A DNA stretch of 64,000 nucleotides from Spirilliplanes yamanashiensis (GTDB lineage Bacteria > Actinomycetota > Actinomycetes > Mycobacteriales > Micromonosporaceae), in the NCBI RefSeq assembly GCF_016863475.1, contig NZ_BOOY01000007.1, positions 1 to 64,000 on the forward strand. Direction: 5' to 3'. Numbering within the stretch: the first letter of the stretch is position 1; the number at the start of each line of letters is the position of its first letter. This document shows, piece after piece, positions 1 through 28,276 of the stretch. The notes below the pieces were generated by a model. That model was not told the DNA's origin. It saw only the letters and a list, made by a program, of their open reading frames with translations, and did no database searches. A program made the translations under genes and the position numbers.

Positions 1-649
1 CCCGCCACGTCCACCGGGTCCAGCCGCTGCCGGCCCGGCGGCGCGCCACCAGGTCGCCGTTGGACACGACCTCCAGCCCGGCGGGCGCGGTGATGGCGAT
101 GGTGAAGCGGGCCTTGTCGGTCGGGTGGTCGTTGGCGGGGAACCAGGCGGCCGCCACGTCCGGCTGCCCGATGATCACCATGCCGTCGTCGGTGTGGAAC
201 ACGCCGCCGGGGCCGAGCGCCGGGTCGTCGTAGACCTGCGGGACGCCGTCGTAGCGCACCACGGTGGTGAACGGCCGGTGCTTGCGGATGCCGCGGCGCG
301 GCGTGACGGTCAGCTCGTCGCCGGCCCGCGACCAGGCGGCGGGCCGGCCGTCCACGGTGATCGATCGGACGGTGAGCCCGTGCAGGTCGAGGTTGAACGC
401 GGACAGGTTCTGCGTCGCCCGCGCGCGGATGGTCGCCGAGCCGGCGAGCACGTCGGTGGCGGGCGTGTACCGCAGGTCGAGGTCGTACCGCCCGACGTCG
501 TACCCGCCGTTGCCGTCCAGGGGGTAGTAGGGGTCGCCGACGCCGGGCGCGCCGGGCGTGTAGGCGCCGCCGTGGGCGGCGGCGGGCGCGCCGGGGAACA
601 GGGCCGCCACCAGGACCAGGGGCACCGCGAAAGCCGCTTTGCGCATCAT
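1..649 (-). CDS. M1-family metallopeptidase, N-terminal part (truncated by window edge)
   Basis: The first 216 residues are visible; the zinc-binding HExxH region would lie beyond position 1. The protein opens with MMRKAAFAVPLVLVAALF and an Ala/Pro-rich cleavage region near residue 25, so it is exported. The mature part begins with a GDPYYPLDGNGGYDV motif followed by alternating strands ending in an AAWFPANDHPTDKA segment, which is the typical N-terminal beta-saddle of aminopeptidase-N-like M1 enzymes, where the 'WFP.ND.P.DKA' block is a hallmark. These enzymes remove N-terminal residues from peptides outside the cell. The start at 649 is supported by a TAGCGT -10 box six bases upstream, implying a leaderless message. 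Family assignment is firm; substrate and completeness cannot be judged. Confidence 0.85.
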   Translation of the reverse strand, partial: MMRKAAFAVPLVLVAALFPGAPAAAHGGAYTPGAPGVGDPYYPLDGNGGYDVGRYDLDLRYTPATDVLAGSATIRARATQNLSAFNLDLHGLTVRSITVDGRPAAWSRAGDELTVTPRRGIRKHRPFTTVVRYDGVPQVYDDPALGPGGVFHTDDGMVIIGQPDVAAAWFPANDHPTDKARFTIAITAPAGLEVVSNGDLVARRRAGSGWTRWTWR

Positions 650-22957: not shown

Positions 22958-23776
22958 TCACCGTTGCCGGACCACCAGCACGGGCGCCGGGGCGTGGTGC
23001 AGCACCTGGTGGCCGGTCGCGCCGAGCGTCAGGCCGGGGAAGCCGCCGGCGCCGCGGGCGCCCACCACGATCAGCTGCGCCCGGCGGGCGGCGTGCAGCA
23101 GGGCGGGCACGGCCGCCTGCGGCACCGCCACGGGCTCGGCGGTGACGCCCGGGTGCTTCTCCCGCCACACCGCCAGCGCGTCGTCGAGCGCCGCGGTCTC
23201 GCGCGCCACGTCGGCGTCGCCGGCGTCCGGGCCCAGCGCGCGCAGCACGCGCAGCGGGGCGTGCCGCTCGTCGGCCGTGTCGAACGCGGCGGCCAGGGCG
23301 GCGTCCGCGGCCGCCGAGCCGTCGACGCCGACCAGCACCGGCGCCCCGCGCCGCCCGGGCGCGGGCGGCCGCACCACGGCCACGGGGCAGGTGGCGTGCG
23401 CGGCCACGGTGGCGGCGACCGAGCCGAGCGAGGCGCCCGGCAGCCCGCCCAGGCCGCGGCGGCCGAGCACGACCAGGCGCGACCGCTCGCCCCGCTCGAC
23501 GAGCGTGGCGGCGACGGCGGCGGGCACCGCCTCGCGGGTCACCCGCACGCCCGGGTGCAGCCGGCCGGCGACGCCGACAGCCCGGTCGAGCAGCTGCTCC
23601 GCCCGGTACAGCGCGGGCACGTCCGGGCGCTCGTGCGGGCCGGGGGCGTCGTGCACCGGCCACGGCGAGACGAACAGCAGGTGGACTCCGGCGCCGGTGC
23701 GCCGGCCCTCCTCGAGCGCCCAGTCGACCGCCGCGTGCGCTCCCGGGGAGCCGTCGTACCCGACCGTGATCCGCAT
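22958..23776 (-). CDS. tandem universal stress protein
   Basis: A protein of 272 residues with two UspA domains (1-145 and 146-272). Each has the alpha/beta fold and the ATP-binding loop: VVLGRRGLGGLPGASLGS ends the first domain, and VVGARGAGGFPGLTLGAT the second; the starts ITVGYDGSPGAHAAV and VLVGVDGSAAADAAL are typical. Such proteins accumulate under hypoxia or starvation and bind ATP. The ATG at 23776 follows GGAAGG. It lies directly upstream of, and divergent from, the NAD kinase redox operon, which may be meaningful since Usp genes often belong to dormancy regulons. Confidence 0.93.
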   Translation of the reverse strand: MRITVGYDGSPGAHAAVDWALEEGRRTGAGVHLLFVSPWPVHDAPGPHERPDVPALYRAEQLLDRAVGVAGRLHPGVRVTREAVPAAVAATLVERGERSRLVVLGRRGLGGLPGASLGSVAATVAAHATCPVAVVRPPAPGRRGAPVLVGVDGSAAADAALAAAFDTADERHAPLRVLRALGPDAGDADVARETAALDDALAVWREKHPGVTAEPVAVPQAAVPALLHAARRAQLIVVGARGAGGFPGLTLGATGHQVLHHAPAPVLVVRQR

Positions 23777-24016: not shown

Positions 24017-25198
24017 GTGGGCATGATCCATGTGGTGGGGCTCGTGCTGCACCCGCGCCGCGACTGCGCGCCCGCCGTCGAGGCGATCCTGAGCTGGGCG
24101 GCCGACCGCGGCGCCACCGTGCTCGGCCTGCCCGAGGAGATCGGCCGCATCGACTGCGCCGCCGAGCCCGTCGGCGTCGACGAGCTGGTCGAGCGCTCGC
24201 ACCTGCTGGTCAGCCTCGGCGGCGACGGCACGATGCTGCGCACCATGCGCCTGGTCGAGGGCCGCAAGACGCCCGTGCTCGGCGTCAACGTGGGCCGGCT
24301 CGGCTTCCTCGCCGAGGTCGACCTGCCGGACCTGTCCGCCGCGCTGTCCGCGATCGACGACCACGCCTACACGATCGAGCCGCGCACGGCCGTGCGCACC
24401 GTGCTGCCCGACGGGCGCGAGGTCTCCGCGTTCAACGACATCGCGCTGGTCCGGGTGCCCGGCGACGGCCTCGCCGCCGTCGGCCTCACCGTCGAGGGCA
24501 AGAGCTTCGTCCGGTACGCCGCCGACGCCGTCATCGTGTCCACCCCGACCGGGTCCACGGCGTACAGCTTCTCGGCCGGCGGCCCGATCGTCTCGCCGAA
24601 GGTGGAGGGCCTGCTCGTCGGGCCCGCGTCGGCGCACTCGGCGTTCAACCGCATGCTGGTCATGTCGCCCGACGAGGAGCTGGTGCTGGAGGTGCTGCCC
24701 ACCTCCGGCCGGCTCGCCGTCGAGGTCGACGGCATCGTGCAGGCGCACGTCGAGGCCGGCCACCACCTGCGGGTCGAGCCGATCCCGGGCGCCGCCCGCG
24801 TCGTCCGCCTCGGCCGCACCACCTTCTACGAGCGGGCCCGGCGCAAGCTGCAGGTCGCGGGCAGCGCCCAGGTCGGCGCCGGCGACGCGGCCGACGCCAT
24901 GGTCGTCGACAGCTTCGAGCAGTCACGGTACGAGGTGCGCATCGGCGGCGAGCTGGCCGGCACCCTCGACTACCGGCGCCGCGACGGGTTCGTGGAACTG
25001 CTGCACACCGAGATCGACCGGACGTACGAGGGGCAGGGCCTCGGCGGCCGGCTGGCCGGGGGCGCCCTGCGCGCGCTGCGCGCCCGCGGCGAGAAGATCA
25101 CGGCGACCTGCCCGTACGTCATCGGCTATCTGGAACGCCATCCCGAGCACGCCGACCTGCTGGCGGCCCGGCCGGAGGGGACCACCGCGAATGGGTAA
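24017..25198 (+). CDS. nadK: NAD kinase fused to a small GNAT acetyltransferase domain
   Basis: A protein of 393 residues. Residues 1-285 are a complete NAD kinase, which makes NADP from NAD and ATP: GGDGTML (68-74), NVGRLGFL, SAFNDIALVR, and STPTGSTAYSFSAGG with its substrate-binding loop. After a short Ala/Gly linker, residues 299-393 form the compact GNAT domain of the YidJ/PF14542 type (VELLHTEIDRTYEGQGLGGRLA and TCPYVIGYLERHP), normally a free protein of about 95 residues. No stop, frame change or internal ribosome binding site separates the two, so this is a real fusion. The GTG at 24017 is preferred because GGGAGGG is eight bases upstream; an ATG at 24023 is the alternative. The end overlaps the next gene by eight bases. 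Confidence 0.92.
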   Translation: MGMIHVVGLVLHPRRDCAPAVEAILSWAADRGATVLGLPEEIGRIDCAAEPVGVDELVERSHLLVSLGGDGTMLRTMRLVEGRKTPVLGVNVGRLGFLAEVDLPDLSAALSAIDDHAYTIEPRTAVRTVLPDGREVSAFNDIALVRVPGDGLAAVGLTVEGKSFVRYAADAVIVSTPTGSTAYSFSAGGPIVSPKVEGLLVGPASAHSAFNRMLVMSPDEELVLEVLPTSGRLAVEVDGIVQAHVEAGHHLRVEPIPGAARVVRLGRTTFYERARRKLQVAGSAQVGAGDAADAMVVDSFEQSRYEVRIGGELAGTLDYRRRDGFVELLHTEIDRTYEGQGLGGRLAGGALRALRARGEKITATCPYVIGYLERHPEHADLLAARPEGTTANG

Positions 25199-26849
25199 GC
25201 CCGCGATCCTGACCGTCGACGACGACCCGGGGGTGTCCCGCGCCGTGGCGCGGGACCTGCGGCGCCGGTACGGCGAGGAGTACCGCATCCTGCGGGCCGC
25301 CTCCGCCGCCGAGGGCCTGGAGGTGCTGCGCGAGCTGAAGCTGCGCGGCGGCCGGGTCGCCGTCATGCTGGCCGACTACCGGATGCCCCAGATGAACGGC
25401 ATCGAGTTCCTCGAACAGGCCATGGACGTCTTCCCGCAGGCGCGCCGGGCGCTGCTGACCGCGTACGCCGACACGGACGCCGCGATCAGCGCCATCAACG
25501 TCGTCGACGTCGACCACTACCTGCTCAAGCCGTGGGACCCGCCGGAGGAGAAGCTCTACCCGGTCATCGACGCGCTGATCGAGGCGTGGCAGGAGGCCGG
25601 CGACCGCGAGGTGGAGGACATCCGCGTCGTCGGGCACCGGTGGAGCGTGCCGTCATTCAAGATCCGCGACTTCCTGGCCCGCAACCTGGTGCCGTACCGC
25701 TGGTTCGGCGCCGACGAGCCGGAGGGTCTGCGGCTGCTGGAGGCGGCCGGGCGCGGCCCGGAGTCGGTGCCGCTGGTGGTCACCGCGGACGGCGCCGCCC
25801 TGGCCCAGCCGACCACCGCCGAGGTGGCCGAGGCGGTCGGCCTGTCCACCGCGCCGGGCCGCGACTTCTACGACCTGGTCATCATCGGCGGCGGCCCGGC
25901 CGGGCTGGGCGCCGCCGTGTACGGCGCCTCCGAGGGCCTGCGCACCGTGCTGGTGGAGAAGCGCGCCATCGGCGGGCAGGCGGGCCAGAGCTCGCGCATC
26001 GAGAACTACCTCGGCTTCCCCGACGGCGTCTCCGGGGCGCAGCTCACCGAGCGGGCCCGCCGGCAGGCCGGCAAGTTCGAGGCGGAGCTGCTCACCACCA
26101 AGGACGTCGTCAGCCTGGCGGCGCGCGGCCCGGCGAAGGTCATCACGTTCGCCGACGGCTCGGAGATCTCGGCGCACGCGGTGCTGCTGGCCACCGGCGT
26201 CGCGTACCGGCCGCTGGAGGCGGCGGGGGTGGCCGAGCTGACCGGCCGGGGCGTCTACTACGGCTCGGCGTCCACCGAGGGCCCGGCCTGCCGCGACACC
26301 GACGTCTACATCGTCGGCGGGGCCAACTCGGCGGGGCAGGCGGCGCTGTTCTTCGCCCAGTACGCCCGCACCGTCACGCTGGTGGTGCGCGGCGCCTCGC
26401 TGGAGAGCTCCATGTCGTACTACCTGATCCAGCAGCTCGCGGCGATCGACAACATTCACGTGCGCACCCGCACGCAGGTCGTCGGCGCGCACGGCGACGA
26501 GCACCTCGCCGAGATCACCCTCAACGACGACAAGACCGGCACCACCACGACCGTGCCGTGCGGGTCGATGTTCGTGTTCATCGGCGCCGAGCCGCGCACC
26601 GACTGGCTCGGCGACATCGTCGCCCGCGACGACCGCGGCTTCGTCTTCACCGGCCCCGATCTGCTCACCGACGGCAAGCGCCCGCGGGGATGGGATCGGG
26701 ACCGCGATCCGTTCTACCTGGAGAGCAGCGTTCCCGGCATCTTCGCCGCCGGCGACGTGCGGGCCGGCTCCGTGAAACGGGTGGCCTCCGCCGTCGGCGA
26801 GGGCGCGATGGCGGTGACGCTCGTGCACCGGTACCTGGAGGCACCATGA
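25191..26849 (+). CDS. response-regulator receiver fused to cysteine-less glutaredoxin-like and thioredoxin-reductase-like FAD domains
   Basis: A protein of 552 residues. Residues 1-130 are a receiver (DDD at 10-12, phosphoacceptor Asp62 in LADYRMPQMNG, Lys113 in LLKPW). Residues 143-220 look like a glutaredoxin fold (IRVVGHRWSVPS, FLARNLVPYRWF), but the active-site CxxC is replaced by Ser152-Val-Pro-Ser155. From 226 a thioredoxin-reductase-type flavoprotein follows: FAD motif GGGPAGLG (233-240), IGGQAGQSSRIENYLGFP, NAD(P) motif VGGANSAGQ, and the closing FAAGDVRAGSVKRVASAVGEGA. The TrxR CATC motif is absent: that place reads GSASTEGPAC, with only Cys367. It therefore cannot run a normal disulfide relay, yet FAD and NAD(P)H sites look intact. 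The adjacent kinase gene overlaps by four bases and is the likely phosphodonor. Confidence 0.92.
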   Translation: MGKPAILTVDDDPGVSRAVARDLRRRYGEEYRILRAASAAEGLEVLRELKLRGGRVAVMLADYRMPQMNGIEFLEQAMDVFPQARRALLTAYADTDAAISAINVVDVDHYLLKPWDPPEEKLYPVIDALIEAWQEAGDREVEDIRVVGHRWSVPSFKIRDFLARNLVPYRWFGADEPEGLRLLEAAGRGPESVPLVVTADGAALAQPTTAEVAEAVGLSTAPGRDFYDLVIIGGGPAGLGAAVYGASEGLRTVLVEKRAIGGQAGQSSRIENYLGFPDGVSGAQLTERARRQAGKFEAELLTTKDVVSLAARGPAKVITFADGSEISAHAVLLATGVAYRPLEAAGVAELTGRGVYYGSASTEGPACRDTDVYIVGGANSAGQAALFFAQYARTVTLVVRGASLESSMSYYLIQQLAAIDNIHVRTRTQVVGAHGDEHLAEITLNDDKTGTTTTVPCGSMFVFIGAEPRTDWLGDIVARDDRGFVFTGPDLLTDGKRPRGWDRDRDPFYLESSVPGIFAAGDVRAGSVKRVASAVGEGAMAVTLVHRYLEAP

Positions 26850-28276
26850 GCGGCCTTGACCCCGCCGAGCTGAGGACCCTGTTCCTCTTCGAGTCGCTGA
26901 CCGACGAGCAGCTGGCGTTCCTCGCCGACGCCGGCCGCGTCGAGCAGCACCCGGCCGGCGCCACCATCTTCCCCGAGAACGACCCGGCGACGTGCTTCTA
27001 CGTGCTGATGTCCGGCACGCTGGCGCTGACCCGCCGGATCGGCCAGGACGACGTCGAGACGGTGCGCACGGACCAGCGCGGCGTCTACATGGGCGCCACC
27101 CAGGCGTACCTGCGCGACGACGACGGCCCGCCGCGCGTCTACACGGCCACCATGCGCGCCGTCACGGACACCACGTTCTTCGTGCTGCCCGCCGACACGT
27201 TCCAGCAGATGATGCGCACCTGGTTCCCGATGGCCATCCACCTGCTGGAGGGCCTGTTCTTCGGCATGCGCAGCACCCAGGCCATCGTGGGGGAGCGGCA
27301 GCGGCTCAGCGCGCTCGGCTCGCTCACCGCCGGGCTGATGCACGAGCTGAACAACCCGGCCGCCGCCGCCGTGCGCGCCACCGGCGCCCTGCGCCAGCGG
27401 GTCGCCGGCATGCGGCACAAGCTCGGAATGCTCGCCGACGGCCGGATCGACCCGGCGCAGCTGGTCAAGATGGTCGGCCTCCAGGAGCAGATCATCGAAC
27501 GGGCCGCCAAGGCCAAGCCGCTGACGGCGCTGCAGGCCAGCGACCTCGAGGACGAGCTGGGCGACTGGATGGACGAGCACCGCATCACCGGCGGCTGGGA
27601 CCTGGCGCCCGTGCTGGCACAGGGCGGCATCGACGTCGAGTGCCTGGACGACATCGCCGAGACGGTCGGCCCGGAGCTGCTCGACGGCGCCATGCACTGG
27701 ATCGGCTACGCGCTGGAGACCGAGCAGCTGATGACCGACATCGAGGACGCCACCGAGCGGGTGTCGAACCTGGTGACGGCGGCGAAGGCGTACTCGCAGC
27801 TCGACCGCGCGGCGCACCAGTGGATCGACGTGCACAGCGGCCTCGACAGCACCCTGGTCATGCTCGGCCACAAGATCGGCAAGGAGGGCGTCACGGTCGT
27901 CAAGGACTACGACCGGACCCTGCCGCAGATCCCCGCCCACGCGGGCGAGCTGAACCAGGTGTGGACCAACCTCATCGACAACGCCGTGCAGGCGATGGAC
28001 GGCTCAGGCACCCTGACGATCCGCACCGCCCGCGACGGCGACCGCGTCCTCGTCGAGGTGTGCGACACCGGCCCGGGCGTGCCCGAGGAGCTGCGCAAGC
28101 GCGTCTTCGAGCCGTTCTTCACCACCAAGCCGGTCGGCGCGGGCACCGGCCTGGGCCTGGACATCTCGTACCGGATCGTGGTCAACCGGCACGGCGGCGA
28201 CCTGCGCCTGGAGTCGGCGCCGGGCGACACCCGCTTCCAGGTGCGGCTGCCGGTGAGCGAGTCGCCGTCGCGCTGA
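26846..28276 (+). CDS. soluble histidine kinase with cyclic-nucleotide-binding-type sensor domain
   Basis: A protein of 476 residues with no membrane helix. Residues 10-130 have the cNMP-binding (Crp-type) fold: LFLFESLTDEQLAFLA, HPAGATIFPENDPATCFYVLMSGTLAL. The phosphate-binding cassette seems modified, so a cyclic nucleotide ligand is uncertain. Residues 155-290 form a long helical dimerisation domain with the phosphorylated His166 in TAGLMHELNNPAAAAV. The HATPase domain has NQVWTNLIDNAVQAM, DTGPGVPEEL, FFTTKPVGAGTGLGLDIS. The ATGA overlap with the preceding gene indicates translational coupling and makes the receiver-flavoprotein the obvious partner. The combination is known from scattered actinobacteria and proteobacteria, but its biological role is not established as far as I know. 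Confidence 0.92.
   Translation: MSGLDPAELRTLFLFESLTDEQLAFLADAGRVEQHPAGATIFPENDPATCFYVLMSGTLALTRRIGQDDVETVRTDQRGVYMGATQAYLRDDDGPPRVYTATMRAVTDTTFFVLPADTFQQMMRTWFPMAIHLLEGLFFGMRSTQAIVGERQRLSALGSLTAGLMHELNNPAAAAVRATGALRQRVAGMRHKLGMLADGRIDPAQLVKMVGLQEQIIERAAKAKPLTALQASDLEDELGDWMDEHRITGGWDLAPVLAQGGIDVECLDDIAETVGPELLDGAMHWIGYALETEQLMTDIEDATERVSNLVTAAKAYSQLDRAAHQWIDVHSGLDSTLVMLGHKIGKEGVTVVKDYDRTLPQIPAHAGELNQVWTNLIDNAVQAMDGSGTLTIRTARDGDRVLVEVCDTGPGVPEELRKRVFEPFFTTKPVGAGTGLGLDISYRIVVNRHGGDLRLESAPGDTRFQVRLPVSESPSR

Follow-up and report, generated by a model that had tools for sequence, protein, structure and literature searches.

A conserved histidine kinase/receiver-flavoprotein pair and its association with an NAD kinase-GNAT fusion gene in Spirilliplanes yamanashiensis and related bacteria

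The three-gene locus

A 64,000 nt stretch of the genome of Spirilliplanes yamanashiensis (contig NZ_BOOY01000007.1, positions 1 to 64,000), referred to here as the window, carries a run of three overlapping genes on one strand. The first encodes an NAD kinase (NadK) fused to a small GNAT domain, the second a receiver domain joined to a flavoprotein that resembles thioredoxin reductase (TrxR), and the third a soluble histidine kinase with a cNMP-type fold. An original prediction, made from the letters of the window, had viewed these genes as a redox signalling module. The underlying observation is confirmed: the coordinates show overlaps of 8 bp between the NadK-GNAT and receiver-flavoprotein genes and of 4 bp between the receiver-flavoprotein and kinase genes, and the domains proposed for the three proteins are all found by Pfam (Table 1). 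The interpretation as a whole is partly supported. The layout is not due to chance, because in a scan of named genomes, which detects close relatives only, all full-length NadK-GNAT fusions (23/23) are followed by both the receiver-flavoprotein and the kinase genes on the same strand.

Table 1. Genes and domains of the locus (positions are those of the window)
Feature	Position	Strand	Details
NadK-GNAT fusion gene	24017..25198	+	Start GTG 24017 or ATG 24023; stop TAA ends 25198
NadK part of the fusion	residues ~1-285		Pfam PF01513/PF20143 (NAD_kinase/NAD_kinase_C)
C-terminal small GNAT domain (Acetyltransf_CG, PF14542)	24926..25159	+	Pfam 77 bits, cut-off 30
Receiver-flavoprotein gene	25191..26849	+	ATG start; 552 aa; receiver, thioredoxin-like fold (probable) and TrxR-like FAD/NAD domains
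Receiver domain (Pfam Response_reg)	25206..25544	+	D62 codon at 25374-25376
Probable thioredoxin-like fold	25620..25835 (residues 144-215)	+	No cysteine in the window protein
TrxR-like FAD/NAD(P)H domains	25869..26804	+	Pfam Pyr_redox_2; S359/T362 at the CxxC positions; C367; R400/M408/S409/Y411/L412
Soluble histidine kinase gene	26846..28276	+	ATG start; cNMP-fold 26945-27217; H166 codon 27341-27343; HATPase_c 27947-28258
Divergent two-domain universal stress protein (USP) gene	22958-23776	-	Neighbour, outside the conserved unit in the Actinoplanes-type clade

The kinase/receiver-flavoprotein pair

Conservation was assessed in 124 loci, consisting of the window, the 23 loci with named full-length fusions, 60 loci of the same order, and 40 loci from elsewhere in the phylum. 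The order loci are 60 of 114 listed places besides the window's own, with receiver-less and many other matches left out, and the phylum loci are 40 of 86 listed places outside the order. Flanks of ~6 kb were read where the contig allows. A cNMP-fold kinase gene adjoins the receiver-flavoprotein gene in 24/24 Actinoplanes-type loci, 57/60 other order loci and 26/40 phylum loci, a total of 107/124, and the two genes thus form a conserved pair, as had been proposed. The adjoining kinase gene lies directly downstream on the same strand, with the exception of three loci where it is upstream (L171, L223 and L227). The receiver-flavoprotein itself is widespread in Actinomycetota.

The window receiver retains the acid pair D10/D11, the phospho-Asp D62, T90 and K113. 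Asp62 had been named earlier as the phospho-acceptor, and it matches by both position and conservation. In a residue test of D11/D62/T90/K113, which allows D/E and T/S and ignores phylogeny, 107/107 receivers with an adjoining kinase pass, compared with 3/17 of those without. It should be noted that the kinase-less set includes L214, where the contig ends 0.4 kb past the gene, and L221, for which another query gives a weak match to the kinase.

The genomes of 31 relatives were also scanned. Of these, 16 have the kinase (E<=1e-60); by coordinates it directly adjoins the receiver-flavoprotein in 13 of the 16, and in G162, G163 and G164 both genes are present, their place being outside the listing. 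The other 15 genomes display no full-length receiver-flavoprotein match at the cut-offs used, and one of them (G009) has a receiver-less match. A further genome, G308 (L185, G308:C1:6412583-6426728), has a flavoprotein gene with an internal deletion and a frameshift, whose frame runs into a kinase that has Arg in place of the phospho-His. By its sequence the whole system is decaying in this genome, a single case of the pair decaying together.

Plasmids carry the pair as well. Eleven plasmid records have a nearly full-length receiver-flavoprotein match, and six were read. The two genes are adjacent in Deinococcus aetherius, Caballeronia, Gloeothece, Tsukamurella and Streptomyces, and in Nostoc edaphicum transposase and bestrophin genes lie between them. 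The "ATP-binding proteins" of the plasmid records match the cNMP-fold kinase, and the Deinococcus, Caballeronia and Cyanobacteria records name the receiver-flavoprotein merely "FAD-dependent oxidoreductase". Judged from these neighbourhoods, the system has the kinase/receiver-flavoprotein pair as its conserved core.

The histidine kinase

Pfam finds a cNMP_binding domain (49.8 bits, cut-off 27.5) and a HATPase_c domain (9e-26) in the window kinase, and no HisKA match among the matches listed. All aligned kinases (81/81) retain the phospho-His (H166) together with the N, D (G1) and G (G2) box residues. The cNMP domains of Crp proteins have a phosphate-binding cassette of the form FGE..R(S/T/A)A. 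This cassette is not present in the cNMP-fold of the ten kinase sequences inspected, and the window protein reads GVYMGATQAY..RVYTATMRA. Thus the description of the sensor as Crp-like holds for the Pfam domain, which scores above cut-off, but not for the usual phosphate-binding cassette. In five loci (L206 and L208-L211), cNMP-fold kinase genes follow straight behind the receiver-flavoprotein gene, two or three in tandem.

The flavin unit lacks the dithiol of thioredoxin reductases

The Pyr_redox_2 match of the receiver-flavoprotein (E 1.9e-32) indicates the presence of the FAD and NAD(P)H Rossmann domains. TrxRs are the leading PDB matches, by sequence and by fold, and the TIGR01292 model is matched with E 5e-65. 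However, the score of 219.2 bits is under the model cut-off of 343.45, and the catalytic CATC positions read S359-A-S-T362. A CxxC motif is found in 0/124 flavin units, while the two TrxR genes of the window genome have CATC. These two canonical genes (L005 and L006, on contigs C43 and C12) are almost identical to each other. Thus the TrxR identity given to the flavoprotein by the original prediction does not hold, the defining dithiol being gone; as far as the aligned residues tell, this is not a thioredoxin reductase, despite the usual label. Since the dithiol is lost and the FAD and pyridine-nucleotide folds are kept, the flavin unit most likely hands electrons from NAD(P)H to an acceptor other than thioredoxin, or else reads NAD(P)H status. 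A cysteine separate from the CxxC positions, C367, is conserved in 97/124 members, and R400, M408, S409, Y411 and L412 are invariant (124/124).

The region between the receiver and the flavin unit, residues 144-215, is modeled by AlphaFold2 (AF2) as a beta-alpha-beta-alpha-beta-beta-alpha unit, with blocks of ~63-88 in predicted local distance difference test (pLDDT) score inside a model that is otherwise poor, and this unit is the only part of the model put to use. It probably represents a thioredoxin-like fold. In Foldseek, full-length AhpF aligns with the receiver-flavoprotein over 581-600 columns, with a template modelling (TM) score of only 0.22-0.23. The fold has a cysteine in 19/124 members, the window protein having none.

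The NadK-GNAT protein and how it joined the pair

The NadK part of the window fusion aligns with the Mycobacterium tuberculosis NAD kinase 1u0r (phmmer 2.1e-40), including the GGDGT, N-D(E) and TPTGSTAY motifs. Its AF2 model has a mean pLDDT of 73, and the best Foldseek matches are NAD kinases. The sequence stays under the NCBIfam NAD-kinase equivalog cut-offs (best score 188.2 bits, cut-off 299). The window genome has two more NadK genes, and the window NadK is thus regarded as a paralogue.

The distribution of the fusion is narrow. Among the matches listed for a sample of 150 genomes of the order, the single full-length NadK-GNAT match is the window's own. The scan of named genomes yielded 44 loci: the 23 full-length fusions, nine unfused NadKs without the pair within 6 kb, and 12 GNAT-only matches. 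The named full-length fusion records belong to Actinoplanes and nearby genera; the four genera that were looked up are Micromonosporaceae, and the remaining genera presumably are as well. In 300 genomes of the family the fusion is present in 68, counting G276, whose NadK part matched only from residue 131-132, and 66 of the 68 fusions precede the pair. By coordinates, 65/68 precede the flavoprotein within 350 bp, as does the fusion of G308 with its broken flavoprotein. In G198 and G216 the fusion is on a different contig from the pair. Eleven of the 68 fusions have a stop inside the match and were suspected of being broken; this was dismissed, as all 11 read as one open NadK+GNAT frame with a natural end at codons 378-387.

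Outside this group, no NadK match is found near the pair in the 60 non-Actinoplanes order loci or in the 40 phylum loci. Intermediate arrangements are present: the fusions of G198 and G216 are apart from the pair, and G168 has NadK and GNAT as two distinct genes, adjoining each other and a gene for a zf-UBP protein, away from the pair. In the genus g96 an unfused NadK gene, an inverted zf-UBP gene and the pair follow each other in a row in the four genomes read, out of seven with NadK; of the other three, G207 has no receiver-flavoprotein match, and the places of G189 and G222 are outside the listing. In FastTree trees, for NadK as well as for the receiver-flavoprotein, g96 stands apart from the Actinoplanes-type clade, with low support at some inner nodes. 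Because both trees set g96 apart, two independent NadK linkages are a simpler reading than one old linkage lost many times, and the g96 linkage is apparently independent of the Actinoplanes-type one. The adjacency of unfused NadK genes of other genera to the receiver-flavoprotein was judged only at loci read. Near misses are a NadK 17 kb from the flavoprotein in G022 and one ~82 kb away in G167.

In 44 genera, counted by eye with NadK at E<=1e-75 and the receiver-flavoprotein at E<=1e-150, the receiver-flavoprotein is present in 12/14 genera with NadK and in 14/30 without (Fisher p 0.02, uncorrected for phylogeny). The nadK-GNAT gene had been put forward as a conserved partner of the pair. It is a consistent one inside a single clade, but not in the order and phylum loci. 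Outside that clade and one other genus NadK genes lie at random distances, an outcome that the original prediction had itself held to speak against it. From these comparisons NadK-GNAT is a late, lineage-specific addition to the pair.

The zf-UBP protein and other neighbours

A recurring neighbour that the original prediction had overlooked is a zf-UBP protein. Its intact gene is found near the pair in 44/124 loci, that is in 9/24 Actinoplanes-type, 26/60 order and 9/40 phylum loci; its position and orientation vary, up to ~5 kb from the pair. One Actinoplanes-type locus, L074, has a zf-UBP remnant besides the nine intact genes. The gap between the NadK-GNAT and flavoprotein genes in the 65 family loci is 306-346 bp in 14, <=60 bp in 48 and intermediate in three, and in loci read the long gap holds the small zf-UBP protein. 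The window has no zf-UBP gene, and its genome has one elsewhere. Locus L236 (G532:C60:21308-34918) displays a degenerate receiver, no kinase match, and a zf-UBP gene directly upstream of the receiver-flavoprotein gene. Since zf-UBP is kept here without a kinase and an intact receiver, this locus suggests that it is tied to the flavin unit and not to phosphorylation.

Genes for a glgX-like isoamylase and for a glycogen-debranching enzyme lie close to the lone zf-UBP gene of the window genome (L176, contig C32). On the Nostoc and Gloeothece plasmids (L243 and L244) glgX and a gene for an AGE-family epimerase precede the receiver-flavoprotein gene. A link of the system to glycogen breakdown is possible.

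The divergent USP gene upstream of the window operon, with its two domains, is present as had been noted, but the connection to hypoxia or dormancy drawn from it is not established. No match to it is found in 23 Actinoplanes-type loci, and it was rejected as a conserved partner for that clade (0/23). As in the window, Streptomyces fungicidicus and two genomes with the same set of neighbouring genes have a divergent USP gene upstream of the pair (L202, L203 and L246).

Three further candidates were rejected as partners. A mycothiol dehydrogenase gene beside the pair in Tsukamurella is not recurrent, with 29-36% matches in four other loci at scattered places; a metallo-beta-lactamase (MBL) hydrolase gene beside the same pair recurs in no other locus; and a short-chain dehydrogenase/reductase (SDR) cluster near the pair has no fixed place. 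Deinococcus aetherius and L224 each have an unfused PF14542 small GNAT gene near the pair, possibly by chance. In Deinococcus aetherius pDAETH-1 (L241) it lies together with a second cNMP-fold kinase gene 2-4 kb upstream of the pair.

Proposed mechanism and alternatives

The arrangement leads us to lean towards a cytoplasmic two-component pair whose output is enzymatic, in which phosphorylation gates an NAD(P)H flavoenzyme or sensor, and to which a dedicated NadK was joined later. The cNMP-fold kinase would autophosphorylate on H166 and the phosphate would pass to D62 of the receiver-flavoprotein. This may alter the contact of the C-terminal flavin unit with NAD(P)H or with a partner. Electrons would go from NAD(P)H to the acceptor of the flavin unit, or the unit would read NAD(P)H status; the thioredoxin-like domain and the zf-UBP protein may help in docking. 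The NadK of Actinoplanes-type bacteria, a paralogue, would at first have been a neighbour of a small GNAT gene, and would then have fused with it and moved ahead of the pair. In the window the NadK-GNAT gene appears to be translationally coupled to the pair, and its product may supply NADP(H) to the flavin unit or tune the same stress response. That NadK sets the cofactor pool of the flavoenzyme, an idea present in the original prediction, is an inference. Output without transcription had also been proposed. Pfam shows NAD(P)H/FAD-type domains only and no DNA-binding domain on the receiver protein. Signalling may act on redox chemistry directly rather than on gene expression.

Several observations weigh against this proposal. 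Most relatives have the pair without an adjoining NadK, and two members of the clade itself, G340 and G368, have the pair and no NadK match at E<=1e-75. The 2'-phosphate of NADPH is bound in TrxRs by the arginines of an HRRxxxR motif. At the corresponding positions R400 is kept in 124/124 members, the second position is G in 103/124 and the third is E in 67/124. Because only R400 of these arginines is kept throughout, the use of NADPH, and with it the rationale for NadK, is uncertain. The AF2 model of the receiver-flavoprotein, made with an alignment of 23 close sequences, has a mean pLDDT of 59. The residue test also loses weight, since the 17 kinase-less loci are mostly one group of distant paralogues (41-47% identity) and are not independent events.

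The lack of a NadK match in G340 and G368 bears also on another reading, in which the pair is real but NadK-GNAT is merely a co-expressed passenger of a stress operon, without a direct biochemical link to the flavoprotein. It agrees as well with the lack of NadK in the 60 order and 40 phylum loci and with the separation of fusion and pair in G198 and G216. However, the linkage is kept by 66/68 fusions, a second and apparently independent linkage is found in g96, and genera with NadK have the receiver-flavoprotein more often than those without, phylogeny being ignored. A mere passenger is therefore rather doubtful, although it is the alternative that fares best.

Alternatively, the flavin unit may be an input: it would sense the level of NAD(P)H/NAD(P)+ or of oxidants and set the phosphorylation of the receiver, which would act as a phosphate sink for the kinase. 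The absence of a dithiol agrees with this, as does the finding that Pfam detects no DNA-binding domain in any of the three proteins. In addition, the flavin unit persists in paralogues that have degenerate receivers and no kinase, and this retention points to a role that is independent of phosphorylation. In contrast, an N-terminal receiver before a folded enzyme is the usual layout of an output, and the kinase carries a sensor domain of its own. An input role is thus considered unlikely. A true receiver-gated thioredoxin reductase, as in the usual label, is hardly credible, since the TIGR01292 and PDB matches that favour it are countered by the score under cut-off and by the absence of CxxC from every flavin unit.

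The preferred mechanism, a phosphorylation-gated flavoenzyme or sensor with a late NadK, can be extended to a bolder and improbable form. The flavoenzyme would be gated outside thiol-disulfide chemistry and supplied on the spot by NadK, the fused GNAT would mark a partner, and zf-UBP, where present, would recognise a protein C-terminus, all within one translationally coupled unit acting without transcription.

Comparison with known systems

Proteins of the receiver-TrxR (REC-TrxR) type have been called a "Mycobacterium-like" combination in the literature (PMC5847659), and have a receiver before a TrxR-like flavoprotein, as does the window protein. The passages on them only name the architecture; here the dithiol is missing (124/124), and the architecture is linked with a kinase, often with zf-UBP, and with NadK-GNAT in a single clade. 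Low-Mr thioredoxin reductases and AhpF have FAD and NAD(P)H domains in common with the window flavoprotein, and AhpF, according to PMC8945050, also has thioredoxin-like folds in front of the FAD/NAD(P)H unit. The window protein differs from both in having no CxxC in the flavin unit, no cysteine in the thioredoxin-like fold, and an added receiver. One match, annotated as a cNMP-binding-domain "thioredoxin-disulfide reductase", takes in the thioredoxin-like and flavin units (residues 144-550 of the query; match of ~49%), with the receiver outside the match. That annotation puts the cNMP-binding domain in the same protein, whereas here the cNMP-fold is on the separate kinase. The window NadK shares its fold and signature motifs with bacterial NAD kinases such as 1u0r of M. 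tuberculosis, but is a divergent paralogue with a C-terminal PF14542 GNAT domain. A literature search, which covered subscription papers little, did not reveal the NadK-GNAT fusion, the three-gene operon, the missing dithiol or the zf-UBP link among the matches listed.

The system is rated as belonging among two-component systems with enzymatic outputs, a known kind. Receiver domains that directly drive metabolic enzymes are uncommon. With the dithiol lost from all 124 members examined and a kinase, and often zf-UBP, travelling along, a mislabelled "thioredoxin reductase" becomes a signalling system that can be put to the test. Its Actinoplanes-type version, which has a built-in NAD kinase, allows one to ask directly whether two-component signalling can set NADP(H)-dependent redox chemistry.

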